Positions 43,489 through 51,913 of a stretch of DNA of 64,000 nucleotides are shown in pieces (the first letter of the stretch is position 1; each line of letters starts with the position of its first letter). A model generated the notes under the pieces. That model was given only the letters and a program-made list of their open reading frames with translations, was not told where the DNA came from and searched no databases. The position numbers and the translations under genes are program-made. Origin of the DNA: Paragemmobacter amnigenus (GTDB lineage: Bacteria; Pseudomonadota; Alphaproteobacteria; Rhodobacterales; Rhodobacteraceae). The stretch spans positions 186,001-250,000 of the forward strand of contig NZ_JAAATX020000005.1 of NCBI RefSeq assembly GCF_009908265.2, written 5' to 3'.

Positions 43489-43540
43489 CTTTTCTTCCTC
43501 CATGTGCGACGGGTAGGTCGGGGATGGAGGTTCGAATTCC

Positions 43541-43630
43541 ATGCACCTTCCCTCCGCCGGTATGATCCGGTTCAGGTTCAACGGGTCCGCTTTCGCATCT
43601 CAGCCTGTCGCCAGGCACCCCGAGGTAGGG
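43541..43630 (-). ncRNA. TPP riboswitch (THI element)
   Basis: Read on the minus strand, the region begins with GGGGTGCCTGGC, then GGCTGAGA, ACCCGTTGAACCTGAACC, GGATCATACCGGCGGAGGGAA and ends near GGTGCATGG. These are the conserved blocks of the thiamine-pyrophosphate riboswitch in the right order. It ends about 55 bases before thiB and should shut off thiBPQ when TPP is plentiful. Confidence 0.95.
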
Positions 43631-43782
43631 CGGAAGATATGGGCTGGCGCGGCGGGCGCAAGGGGGAAAAGACCGCCCATACCTCTGACCGGACCGACCG
43701 CTCCGGTCGGACCCGCCGCAAAGCCCTTTGCGCGCTGCACGGGATTGCCCTATGGACGGTGCGGCAAAACCGGAGCGCACGC

Positions 43783-47903: not shown

Positions 47904-48743
47904 ATGAAAACGCTTCTCTCCATCGGACATGGCTATTCCGCACAGGCACTTGCCCGCAGGCTGCTGCCTGCGGGGTGGACTGTCATCGGCACCACACGCA
48001 ACACGCAAACGGCGCAGGCCCTGCACGAGGCGGGGGTGGAGCCGCTGCTCCTGCCCGCGCCGCTGGCACCGGCCCTGTCGCGGGCGACCCATGTGCTGAC
48101 ATCGGTCGCGCCGGATGCGACGGGTGATCCGATCCTGCGCGACCATGCGGATGAACTGCGCCGCGCCGCGCCGGAATGGGCGGGCTATCTGTCCACGACC
48201 GCCGTCTATGGCGACCACGCCGGCGGCTGGGTGGACGAGGATACACCGCCCGATCCTGCCACCGCCCGCGGCAAGGCGCGCGCGGCGGCCGAGGCGGACT
48301 GGTCCGCGCTGGGCCTGCCGCTGCATATCTTCCGGCTGGCGGGCATCTACGGGCCGGGTCGCGGCCCGTTCGAGAAAGTCCGCGACGGCACCGCGCGGCG
48401 GATCATCAAGGCGGGGCAGGTGTTCAGCCGTATCCATGTCGACGATATCGCCCGCGTGGTCGAGGCGTCGATGCTCCATCCCCGTCCCGGAGCCATCTAC
48501 AATGTCTGCGACGACGACCCCGCCCCGCCCGAGGATGTCATCGGGCATGCCGCGGAACTTCTGGGCCTGCCGCTGCCGCCCGCCATTCCCTATGAACAGG
48601 CCGATCTGACGCCGATGGCGCGCAGCTTCTATGCCGAGTCCAAGCGCGTGCGGAACGACCGGATCAAGGCAGAGCTGGGCGTGCGCCTGCTTTATCCCAC
48701 CTATCGCGAGGGGCTTGCCGCCCTGCTGGCCCAGGGTGGATAG
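47904..48743 (+). CDS. NAD-dependent epimerase/dehydratase-like (SDR) protein
   Basis: This 279-residue extended SDR-type protein has a short N-terminal nucleotide-binding motif (LLSIGHGYSAQALARRL), STTAVYGDHAGGWVDE carrying the active-site-like Tyr, and IFRLAGIYGPGRGPFE. It resembles YeeZ-type proteins of unknown reaction. It is followed after 2 bases by a very strong hairpin. Confidence 0.78.
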   Translation: MKTLLSIGHGYSAQALARRLLPAGWTVIGTTRNTQTAQALHEAGVEPLLLPAPLAPALSRATHVLTSVAPDATGDPILRDHADELRRAAPEWAGYLSTTAVYGDHAGGWVDEDTPPDPATARGKARAAAEADWSALGLPLHIFRLAGIYGPGRGPFEKVRDGTARRIIKAGQVFSRIHVDDIARVVEASMLHPRPGAIYNVCDDDPAPPEDVIGHAAELLGLPLPPAIPYEQADLTPMARSFYAESKRVRNDRIKAELGVRLLYPTYREGLAALLAQGG

Positions 48744-48745
48744 CG

Positions 48746-48785
48746 CAGGTTTTTCACGCCCCTGTGAGCGGGCGTGAAAAACCTG
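48746..48785. promoter_or_regulatory. 16-bp perfect hairpin after SDR gene
   Basis: CAGGTTTTTCACGCCC pairs perfectly with GGGCGTGAAAAACCTG around an 8-base loop, and flanking GCG/CGC could extend it after a small bulge. It begins 3 bases after the SDR stop codon. There is no T-run right after the stem, so it is either a factor-assisted terminator or a transcript-end stabiliser. Confidence 0.55.
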
Positions 48786-48961
48786 TGCGCGAGATACTTG
48801 AATAGACCAGACCGCTTCCCATCTTTCCCCAGCGGGCCGGGCCCCTCTGACGCGTCATCGCGCCATGTCGGACCGCATCGAGTGCGCCTCGATGTCATGC
48901 CCGGACTCCTGATCGGCTGACCTCCCGGCGTGTTGATGTGCAACCGGAAGGATCGACGGGG

Positions 48962-49954
48962 ATGGAATTCCTTTTTCTGCTGTTTCTGGGCAAGCCGATG
49001 TGGATGTGGCTGCTCTTCATAACTCTGGTCATCGCGCTTCTGGCGTTCGACCTTGGCGTTCTGCACAAGGACGGCAACCACGAGATCGGCGTCGCCGAAA
49101 GCCTGAAGCTGTCGGGCATGTATATCGCGCTTGGCCTTTCCTTTGCGGGCTTCGTCTACTGGCAGATGGGGTGGGAGCCGACGGCGCATTACCTTACCGC
49201 CTTCGTGGTAGAAAAGACGCTTGCGATGGACAACGTCTTTGTCATCGCGCTGATCTTCACATTCTTTGCTGTGCCGCGCGCCTATCAGCACCGCGTGCTG
49301 TTCTGGGGTATTCTGGGCGTGATCGTGCTGCGGGGGATCATGATCGGGCTGGGGGCGACGATCGTCGCGTCCTATAGCTGGGTTCTGTACATCTTTGCGG
49401 TCTTCCTGATCTTCACCGGCATCAAGATGCTGTTCGTGGCCGACAAGGAGCACAACATCGCGGACAATCCGCTGTTGAAGTTCATCAAGCGCCGCTTTCG
49501 CGTCACGGACGAACTGCACGGCAACAGCTTCTTCGTGCAGAAGGCCGATGCCCACGGCAGGATGGTGCGCTATGCCACCCCCCTCTTCATCGCGCTGATC
49601 CTGATCGAGATTGCGGACCTTGTCTTCGCGGTCGACTCGGTTCCCGCCGTGTTCACCATCACGACGGACCCCTATATCGTCTACACGTCGAACATCTTTG
49701 CGATCCTCGGTCTGCGCGCGCTCTACTTCGCGCTTGCCGCGATCCTGCACCGCTTTGCCTATCTGAAGTATGCACTGTCGCTGCTGCTGGTCTTCATCGG
49801 GTCCAAGATCTTCATCGCCGACATCATGGGCTGGGAGAAGTTCCCGCCGAGCTGGTCGCTGGGCATCACCTTTGCGATCCTCGGGGCGGGGGTGTTCTTC
49901 TCGCTGTGGAAGACCAGAGGCGAAAAGGACCCCGCCGTGAAGCCCGCCGAATAG
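48962..49954 (+). CDS. TerC/Alx-family membrane transporter
   Basis: This 330-residue integral membrane protein has about nine hydrophobic segments and the conserved acidic motifs VEKTLAMDNVFVIALIF and EIADLVFAVDSVPAVF. The family includes manganese exporters (Alx/MntP-like function) and tellurite-resistance proteins. ATG 48962 starts the conserved MEFLFLLFLGKP; AAGGA lies upstream. The 180-base leader after the hairpin was checked by eye for a yybP-ykoY manganese riboswitch without a convincing match. Confidence 0.88.
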   Translation: MEFLFLLFLGKPMWMWLLFITLVIALLAFDLGVLHKDGNHEIGVAESLKLSGMYIALGLSFAGFVYWQMGWEPTAHYLTAFVVEKTLAMDNVFVIALIFTFFAVPRAYQHRVLFWGILGVIVLRGIMIGLGATIVASYSWVLYIFAVFLIFTGIKMLFVADKEHNIADNPLLKFIKRRFRVTDELHGNSFFVQKADAHGRMVRYATPLFIALILIEIADLVFAVDSVPAVFTITTDPYIVYTSNIFAILGLRALYFALAAILHRFAYLKYALSLLLVFIGSKIFIADIMGWEKFPPSWSLGITFAILGAGVFFSLWKTRGEKDPAVKPAE

Positions 49955-49982
49955 GCGAAGCGCAACGCAACGCAGAGAAAAG

Positions 49983-50016
49983 CGTCCGGCCCCCGTGGCC
50001 GGACGTTGCCTTTTTT
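49983..50016 (+). terminator. Terminator of the TerC-family gene
   Basis: A 9-bp stem (CGTCCGGCC/GGCCGGACG) with a 5-base loop is followed within five bases by TTTTTT. It lies 28 bases after the stop codon. Confidence 0.85.
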
Positions 50017-50064
50017 CGCGGACTGTTCGAAATCGCTGGCAGGAAACACACTAGCGAGTGAACG

Positions 50065-50841
50065 ATGTCCCTGCGCGATACCATTGCCGTCTGGCTTGAC
50101 TCTCCCAAATTCAACAACTTCATCCTCGGCGTGATCCTATTCAACGCCGTGCTGATGGGGATGGAAACCTCTCCGGCCATCATGGCCTCGATCGGCGGGG
50201 CGATCCATTTCCTGGATACCCTCTGTCTTGCGATCTTCGTGGTCGAGCTTCTGGCGAAGCTGTCCACACAAGGACTGCGCTTCTTTCGCTCCGGTTGGAA
50301 CATCTTTGACGCCATCATCATCGGCATCGCGCTGCTTCCCGACTCCAAGGGGCTTTCGGTGCTCCGGGGCCTGCGGGTGTTGCGGGTTCTGCGCGTCGTC
50401 TCCATCGCGCCCAGCCTGCGCCGCGTGGTCGAGGGCCTGCTCAAGGCGCTGCCCGGCATGGCGTCGGTCTTTCTGCTCATGGGTATCCTGTTCTACATCG
50501 CCGCCGTCATGGCGACCCAGCTTTACGGGCAGCAATTCCCCGACCGCTTCGGCGATCTGGCAGGATCGGCCCTGACGCTGTTTCAGGTGATGACGATGGA
50601 AGGCTGGGCCGATGGCGTGGTGCGTCCGGTGATGGAAATCCACCCCTATGCGTGGCTTTTCTTCATCCCCTTCATCTTCGCCACCAGCTTTGCCGTGATG
50701 AACCTTCTGGTCGGTCTGATCGTGAACTCGATGCAAGAGGTCGCCGAGGCAGACATGAAGAAGTTCGAGGTCGACCAGCACGACCAGTTGCTTGCCCGTC
50801 TGGACGCGCTGGAAGCCAAGATCGACCGTCTGGCAAAATAG
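50065..50841 (+). CDS. Single-domain voltage-gated cation channel, predicted calcium-type filter
   Basis: This 258-residue protein has the six-helix layout of bacterial NaChBac-type channels. The S4 voltage sensor has arginines every third residue (R101, R104, R107, R110 in VLRGLRVLRVLRVV). The pore ends with S6 FATSFAVMNLLVGLIVNSM, and a C-terminal coiled-coil tail follows (about 226-258). The selectivity filter is TMEGWAD (residues 177-183) instead of TLESWxx in sodium channels. From memory, the native prokaryotic Ca2+ channel CavMr has TLEGWVD, with the Gly as the calcium determinant. Calcium selectivity is therefore predicted. It is an isolated gene between a terminator and a convergent hydrolase. 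Confidence 0.88.
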   Translation: MSLRDTIAVWLDSPKFNNFILGVILFNAVLMGMETSPAIMASIGGAIHFLDTLCLAIFVVELLAKLSTQGLRFFRSGWNIFDAIIIGIALLPDSKGLSVLRGLRVLRVLRVVSIAPSLRRVVEGLLKALPGMASVFLLMGILFYIAAVMATQLYGQQFPDRFGDLAGSALTLFQVMTMEGWADGVVRPVMEIHPYAWLFFIPFIFATSFAVMNLLVGLIVNSMQEVAEADMKKFEVDQHDQLLARLDALEAKIDRLAK

Positions 50842-50848
50842 GGGCGGA

Positions 50849-51913
50849 TCACTCCGCCACGGCTTCGTCGATCCGGAAGGCGAGGGCATCCAGTGAGATG
50901 CTCTCGCCATTCGCCAGCAGGATCACGCTGACCCCCGATGTCAGGTTCCGCAGGTAATAGGTCGATGTTCCGGTCCAGCTGCCAGAGTGGAAGGCGTAAT
51001 CCCCCTCTCCGAAACTCTGCACCTCCCAGCCAAAGCCGTATCCTGCGCCGTCATCGTCGATCGGTGTGCCGTCATCCAGCGTGCCGTTGCGGAAGAGCGG
51101 GCGCATTTCGGGCAGCATCCCCACCTCGTCCAGCCATGCCTCGTAAAGCGCAAGGTCGGCCAAGGTGGAAAAGACGTTGCCGTCCCCTTCCGAGATGTTG
51201 GGATCGCTGACCTCTTCGAAATCGCCATCCGTTCCGTCATATCCCGTGACCCGCGCCGCCTCGTCGACAGGGGTGACGAGCGATGTCATCTCCATCCCCA
51301 GTGGACCCCAGATTCGTTCTTCCAGCACATCCCCCAGCGAGTCCTTGCCCCCGGCCTCGGCCACAAGGCTGCCCAGAGCAAGATAGCCGCTGTTGGAATA
51401 GGAAAACTCGGTCCCCGGCGCGGCGTCGCGCTCTTGCGCGGCAAGCCAGTCGACCACCTCGTCGTTGGGGGTCATGGCACCATAGTCGTCATAGCCGGAA
51501 AGATAGTCCGTCAGGCCGGAAACGTGCTGGACCAGATCCAGCACGATCAAGGGTCGATCCGCCTCTAGATCCTCTGCAAAGGCGGGCAAGATCGTGCCGA
51601 TTTCGGTTTCGGCGGCATAAAGCCCGTCATTCATCTGCAAGATCGCGGCGACCGCCGTCATCTGCTTGGACACCGAGGCAAGGTCGAAGATCGATCCGGG
51701 CGTGACGGGCGTTTCTTCGGCAAGATCGGCGAAGCCATAGCCCGCCATGTGGATCACCTCGCCCTCGCGCGTCACTAGAACCGCCAGTCCGGGCGTTTCG
51801 GTGCCGACGACCGCTTCCGCCTCTTCATCCACGACCGGAAGTCGGGGTTCGGCCAGCGCGGCGCCAGGCAGGGCAGCGACAAGCAGGAACGGCAAGGCAA
51901 AGTTGGACAACAT
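50849..51913 (-). CDS. Secreted serine hydrolase of the beta-lactamase/class C family
   Basis: This 354-residue protein has a signal peptide (LLVAALPGAALAEPR). The active site motif SxxK is in DLASVSKQMTAV, the second motif Y-S-N in EFSYSNSGYLALG, and a C-terminal HSG in YAFHSGSWTG. The fold covers esterases, D-aminopeptidases and class C-like proteins; genuine beta-lactamase activity is not implied. It is convergent with the channel gene, with 7 bases between stops. Confidence 0.85.
   Translation of the reverse strand: MLSNFALPFLLVAALPGAALAEPRLPVVDEEAEAVVGTETPGLAVLVTREGEVIHMAGYGFADLAEETPVTPGSIFDLASVSKQMTAVAAILQMNDGLYAAETEIGTILPAFAEDLEADRPLIVLDLVQHVSGLTDYLSGYDDYGAMTPNDEVVDWLAAQERDAAPGTEFSYSNSGYLALGSLVAEAGGKDSLGDVLEERIWGPLGMEMTSLVTPVDEAARVTGYDGTDGDFEEVSDPNISEGDGNVFSTLADLALYEAWLDEVGMLPEMRPLFRNGTLDDGTPIDDDGAGYGFGWEVQSFGEGDYAFHSGSWTGTSTYYLRNLTSGVSVILLANGESISLDALAFRIDEAVAE

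Follow-up and report, generated by a model that had tools for sequence, protein, structure and literature searches.

A calcium-type selectivity filter in a sodium-channel lineage of Rhodobacteraceae, with a natural mismatch between sensor and pore

The locus

The window analysed here is the whole 64,000-nucleotide stretch from Paragemmobacter amnigenus. It carries a gene for a voltage-gated channel of the BacNav type, with a terC/alx gene directly upstream. Gly4, Ser4, Met7 and the like below name the residue at that position of the selectivity filter, and a row is one sequence of an alignment. The features are:

48829..48880 (+): terC RNA, Rfam RF03067, a curated structured element and cis-regulatory candidate before terC (52.2 bits against a gathering score of 39.9)
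48938..49954 (+): terC/alx gene, TIGR03718, TerC/Alx family metal homeostasis membrane protein (NCBIfam profile match)
49981..50017 (+): terminator-like hairpin with T-run, between terC and the channel (consensus match)
50065..50841 (+): voltage-gated channel gene, BacNav-type, a six-transmembrane single-domain Ion_trans protein of 258 residues (open reading frame, Pfam, search for structural relatives)
50092..50442 (+): voltage-sensor part, residues 10-126, with R101, R104, R107 and R110 in S4 and the counter-charges N27, E61 and D82
50470..50742 (+): pore module S5-P1-filter-P2-S6, residues 136-226, whose history departs from that of the sensor in relatives within the genus
50545..50547 (+): Arg161, turret; Arg, Lys or Gln in 14/14 Gly-filter rows and Trp in 29/29 Ser-filter rows of the Rhodobacteraceae subset
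50572..50574 (+): Leu170, P1 helix; Leu in 14/14 Gly-filter rows and Tyr in 29/29 Ser-filter rows of the same subset
50593..50613 (+): selectivity filter TMEGWAD, residues 177-183, aligned gap-free to TLESWSM of NavMs and NavAb
50602-50604 (+): Gly180, filter position 4
50611-50613 (+): Asp183, filter position 7
50852-51913 (-): serine beta-lactamase-family hydrolase, PF00144, convergent with the channel

The end of terC/alx and the start of the channel gene are 110 bases apart. The hairpin between them means that the two genes may be transcribed separately; the region 48700-50950 holds six terminator-like sites, against a mean of 1.9 in shuffles. The hydrolase lies near the channel site in some genomes of the genus only, and its best 25 of 46 NCBIfam matches are all far below the cut-offs. 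Further off, at 43532-43632 (-), there is a TPP riboswitch (73 bits).

A terC gene lies at most 1 kb upstream on the same strand at 14/33 Gly4 loci, 2/94 Ser4 loci and 0/8 Asn4 or Asp4 loci, a count that omits four loci without a read filter. Eleven of those 14 Gly4 loci are from Rhodobacteraceae and so are not independent. The two Ser4 loci are L010 and L014, the pair with the odd pores described below. In the distant alphaproteobacterial loci L123, L124 and L126 (TLEGWAE, TLEGWPD) terC likewise precedes the channel, by 30-75 bases and in the same orientation. The arrangement varies: in genomes G013 and G014 terC is some 7.8 kb from the channel, and at L187 (G015), L188 (G017) and L189 (G001) terC and dxs are close together with no channel match between them, which is apparently an empty site.

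TerC proteins are described as handling Mn2+, and a paper on the LysE superfamily finds that TerC scores highest against Ca2+/H+ antiporters (PMC4608589). A functional link between terC and the channel is offered as a suggestion.

The channel and its filter

The channel frame opens with ATG, and Pfam Ion_trans matches the 258-residue product with an E-value of 3.7e-44. Its top solved relative is PDB entry 5hvx (E 6.5e-74), listed as 'Ion transport protein', which we take to be NavMs. Entries 3rvy and 6mwa are presumably NavAb. The protein is a single-domain, six-transmembrane Ion_trans relative of both, with 50.4% identity to NavMs over 226 positions and 44.4% to NavAb over 216.

R101, R104, R107 and R110 match the four arginines of S4 in NavMs and NavAb, and N27, F58, E61 and D82 are retained as well. 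All eight are invariant across a 46-sequence alignment. Judged by these residues, the voltage sensor is complete. The sole cysteine is C54, and alignment to NavMs and NavAb gives no L6 extension. The initial annotation had described a 258-residue channel with an S4 sensor and a pore; the open reading frame, the Ion_trans match, the four arginines and a gap-free pore all bear this out.

The pore aligns to NavMs and NavAb with zero gaps, NavAb numbering being that of the window minus 2. Gly180 is therefore the equivalent of NavAb Ser178, which places it within the filter; likewise Asp183 corresponds to Met181 and Glu179 to Glu177. The annotation had placed TMEGWAD at 50593-50613, which is exact, and had held that a Gly180 outside the filter would count against its reading. 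The alignment puts Gly180 inside, at position 4.

The TxEGWxD pattern is retained. Since the filter reads TMEGWAD and not the sodium-type TLESWxx, filing the gene as a sodium channel would be inappropriate. TMEGWAD is also no chance string, as Gly4 is found in 12 of the 14 channel-bearing genomes of the genus. What the annotation said about CavMr is right too: its filter is TLEGWVD, and G4S or G4D is reported to lower its Ca2+ selectivity (PMC7041947, PMC7041941).

Kinship and distribution

Two trees were computed, both with the filter columns excluded and with NaChBac, CavMr and NavPp in neither. In the 137-row tree, made by a quick method, the window channel falls in an 83-row Rhodobacteraceae clade (support 97, starred) that is mainly TLESWSM. 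The careful 57-row tree, rooted on NavAb and L084 and with a bootstrap that had not fully settled, places it in a 45-row Rhodobacteraceae clade (100/99) of 29 Ser4, 14 Gly4 and 2 Asn4 rows. Within that, its own clade of seven rows (99/98) has the filters TMEGWAD, TLEGWAG and TLEGWAD.

By these trees, the nearest kin of the window channel are the canonical TLESWSM channels of Rhodobacteraceae. In trees without CavMr it stands among these channels and not on a branch separate from canonical BacNavs. At the same time its filter has the Gly4 and the polar or acidic residue 7 that mark the AnclNav group. According to the CavMr paper of 2020, canonical BacNavs show neither Gly4 nor a residue 7 that is polar or acidic (PMC7041947). 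The group of the window channel is an exception to this statement.

The initial reading of a voltage-gated, CavMr-type TxEGWxD channel in an alphaproteobacterium, from an under-described group, survives in these terms. The group does exist. It is larger and more varied than had been noted, with close TLESWSM relatives among its members.

Another type of TxEGWxD channel is one residue shorter after the filter and is placed elsewhere in the 137-row tree. Outside Rhodobacteraceae, 11 TxEGWxD channels were found, and ten are of this type (L076, L077, L081, L085, L086, L124, L126, L131, L132 and L133). The sole exception, L134, has the canonical length, as does the window channel.

Within the genus the channel is present in 14/19 genomes, with TMEGWAD in 2, TLEGWAG in 4, TLEGWAD in 6 and TLESWSM in 2. 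Across the family, 256/394 Rhodobacteraceae genomes, sampled at roughly one per genus, contain a relative. A filter-pattern search of the same 394 genomes matched 251, and among the matches listed nearly all are Ser4; Gly4 was read in G259 and also, in G192, in a second gene. That second gene (L137, 1872-2627) is a BacNav with TLEGWNG, in a genome that also bears a TLESWSM-type channel. At the level of the class, a Gly4 filter of the searched form occurs in 13/385 genomes, counting that of the window.

A single Gly4 ancestor for all Gly4 channels, as whole proteins, was considered and dropped: the Gly4 rows are scattered in both trees, though for the pores by themselves a single clade is not rejected.

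Other filters were also met. L055, L138-L141, L026, L027 and L080 have TLENWAD, TLEDWAD, TLEDWSS, TLENWVD, TLENWAG and TLDSWAT, and at G359:C119:3285-3313 (+), the second pattern match in that genome, position 4 is Phe (TLEFW).

Filter positions change together. Among the 137 sequences, a set biased towards odd filters, 13 loci having been drawn from a Gly4 search and others hand-picked, Met7 is found in 0/33 Gly4 rows and 95/96 Ser4 rows, and an acid at position 7 or 8 in 31/33 and 0/96 respectively. In the Rhodobacteraceae subset, six sites (161, 170, 180, 182, 183 and 185) split the 14 Gly4 from the 29 Ser4 rows with no overlap, in a comparison uncorrected for kinship. The natural Gly4 channels examined avoid the combination of Gly4 with Met7 that defines the engineered channel LivAb. 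This matters because that combination, in NavAb S178G, gains no Ca2+ permeability.

Sensor and pore histories

Two species of the genus have TLESWSM: G016 (locus L010) and G018 (L014). Their sensors belong with Gly4 channels. L014 shares 96% identity with L011 (TLEGWAD) in S1-S4, against 71% in S5 and 74% in filter plus P2. L010 is 93% identical in S1-S4 to L007, another TLEGWAD channel, and L007 and L011 are 95-100% identical to each other across S5, P1 and filter.

Sites can be counted by whether they support the sensor grouping or the pore grouping of four sequences. In one such quartet the ratio is 39:0 left of codon 135 and 3:30 right of it; two others give 48:4 and 42:3 left of the break, and 10:30 and 12:29 right of it. 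The best breaks of the three are 135/136, again 135/136 (50469/50470) and 124/126. Permutations as extreme numbered 0/10000 in each.

Tree tests agree. The Gly4 grouping fails on sensor DNA (p-AU 1.1e-4 or less), and the sensor grouping fails on pore DNA (p-AU 6.4e-4; 1.1e-5 for first and second codon positions). Protein AU tests point the same way with p from 0.0014 to 0.023, for groups chosen after the trees were seen.

The flanking genes show which part has departed. Trees of dxs (with composition warnings for 10/19 rows) and terC put G018 with G008 and G006 (and G004), and G016 with G010, G011, G002 and G003. This matches the sensor for both genomes, so the part out of line there is the pore. 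A tree of the pores unites the 14 Gly4 pores from Rhodobacteraceae in a single clade (93/89, not starred). L010 and L014 pair (98/94) in the other part (84/75), with TLESWSM and two TLENWAG pores.

Recombination of the pore module would best explain this conflict, although third codon positions leave it undecided. Those of the pore reject neither grouping (p-AU 0.32-0.56), and synonymous pore sites in four quartets divide 3:4, 7:3, 9:3 and 3:3 between the sensor and pore groupings. In S5-P1, third positions place the sensor grouping ahead by 5.1 log units, which is not significant (p-AU of the others 0.185). That silent sites fail to favour the pore grouping, and in S5-P1 lean the other way, is what one would expect if the pores had evolved in parallel at the amino-acid level, under selection for another ion and with no recombination. 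We consider such parallel evolution unlikely, though by no means negligible. Right of codon 135, each of the four quartets has 16 amino-acid sites for the pore grouping and 0 for the sensor grouping, several lying in S5, where a connection with the filter is not apparent. The break is sharp, and even outside the filter both TLESWSM pores pair with each other amid other TLESWSM pores and not with their sensor neighbours.

Movement was not confined to the pore. The channels of the window (G000) and of G004 are sisters over their whole length, which conflicts with the dxs tree, where G000 is next to the G010 group and G004 falls with G006, G008 and G018. Whole genes have therefore moved too, or some flanking genes have. 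As for direction, most channels of the genus have Gly4 and the site is shared, which suggests that the sodium-type pore was regained twice.

A wider reading is that a calcium-type pore arose inside the Rhodobacteraceae sodium-channel clade, and has since been swapped with sodium-type pores on unchanged sensors, between terC/alx and dxs. The resulting genes would be natural chimaeras, in which selectivity is a swappable cassette and a NavAb-like channel turns to calcium by joint change at positions 4 and 7. This is tentative, and we put it at somewhat under an even chance.

Calcium or sodium

The gene probably encodes a homotetrameric, depolarisation-gated cation channel. It is kin to NavAb and NavMs, with a pore that would have shifted from TLESWSM to a calcium-favouring TMEGWAD, and in the genus pore and sensor can differ in history. 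The ring of Glu179 would still be the main binding site. Gly180 takes away the Ser side chain and would widen the outer mouth. Asp183 replaces Met, and so might lose a residue that helps NavAb to exclude divalents while adding a second acidic ring. Depolarisation would make S4 open the gate at S6, admitting Ca2+ and perhaps other divalents.

Published results on Gly4 conflict. In CavMr, Gly4 is reported as a determinant of Ca2+ selectivity, and D4G makes NavPp divalent-selective (PMC7041947). A review describes one-domain channels as Ca2+ selective when this filter position is Gly (PMC10120453). In NavAb, S178G (TLEGWSM) prefers Li+ and has a PCa/PNa below 0.05. M181A, with looser divalent exclusion, reaches 0.36, and S178G/M181A 0.47 (PMC12919392). 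The role that the initial annotation gave to Gly thus holds for CavMr, and Gly4 alone is insufficient for Ca2+ selectivity in a NavAb-like channel. Ca2+ selectivity here would then need Gly4, Asp7 and changes in the scaffold together. The scaffold does matter, as CavMr D7M retains a PCa/PNa of 144, so that Asp7 is not key in that channel (PMC7041947).

Those NavAb values could equally mean that the Gly/Asp filter broadens selectivity and does not switch it. The channel would then be nonselective, or conduct Na+ and Li+ with modest Ca2+ permeability or Ca2+ block. NavPp, which has one Asp more than CavMr and still prefers Na+ in the published account (PMC7041947), points the same way. This is a real possibility, to which we give about a third of our belief. 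The NavAb mutants concerned differ from native Gly4 rows, which lack Met7 throughout and nearly all have an acid at 7 or 8, and in which turret and pore-helix sites are altered as well. A different possibility is that the channel is itself of the CavMr (AnclNav) type, or gained a pore of that type from outside the family. The TxEGWxD pattern is common to both, and keeping 20 Gly4 pores of the subset together in a single clade is not rejected (p-AU 0.316, 82 columns). Such an origin is nevertheless very improbable: the whole protein sits within the Rhodobacteraceae clade, it has the canonical length after the filter where nearly all outside TxEGWxD channels are shorter, and the L6 extension is missing. 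A Ca2+ preference of the window channel is plausible, and we infer that Gly4, Asp7 and the pore-helix changes would together make a calcium-favouring pore.

It was also considered that habitat sets the pore, with low-salt water favouring the calcium type. Genus proxies failed to separate the TLESWSM genomes G016 and G018 from the rest, and this was set aside. Many named TLESWSM loci are presumably from marine genera. Ectoine synthase is found in G003, G004, G007 and G016 and not in G018 (21 genomes). Among the 14 channel-bearing genomes, the BCCT transporter is found only in G002 and NqrA in 0/14. The net charge of four neighbouring proteins in G016 and G018 falls inside or close to the spread seen in the other genomes. 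The source of L015 is a hydroelectric reservoir (PMC3894272), and the CavMr paper draws the same habitat contrast for CavMr and NavPp (PMC7041947). The habitat link is kept as an idea.

A literature text search, mostly of papers outside subscription, found TLEGWVD in two papers and did not find TLEGWAD, TMEGWAD, LEGWAG or TLEGWS. Three papers matched the theme of recombination or modular evolution in bacterial sodium channels. No title among the literature matches listed concerns Gly-filter channels of Rhodobacteraceae.

The window therefore holds a real and correctly read calcium-type filter in a sodium-channel lineage, with a natural sensor/pore mismatch that can be tested. Because Gly4 and Asp7 occur here naturally on a NavAb-like scaffold, and near-identical TLESWSM sisters share the same sensor, the published conflict over Gly4 is directly testable. 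These channels also bear on how evolution turns calcium into sodium selectivity and back.

Comparison with known channels

NavMs and NavAb share with the window channel their length, the complete S1-S4 sensor and the gap-free pore. They differ in having TLESWSM, a P1 Tyr and a turret Trp where the window channel has TMEGWAD, Leu170 and Arg161.

CavMr of Meiothermus ruber, a native prokaryotic Ca2+ channel with TLEGWVD, has the same TxEGWxD, Gly4 and Asp7 (PMC7041947). According to a review it bears a disulfide-containing L6 extension, absent from the window channel, and is described in the separate AnclNav group (PMC10120453). Its Ca2+ selectivity is measured, whereas that of the window channel is predicted.

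Two engineered forms of NavAb are also comparable. LivAb (S178G, TLEGWSM) is similar in placing Gly4 on a NavAb-like scaffold, but keeps the Met7 that the natural Gly4 rows lack, and is reported to prefer Li+ and exclude Ca2+ (PMC12919392). CavAb (TLDDWSD) resembles the window channel in having Asp7 on the NavAb scaffold, and has Asp at positions 3 and 4 where the window channel has Glu and Gly (PMC10120453).
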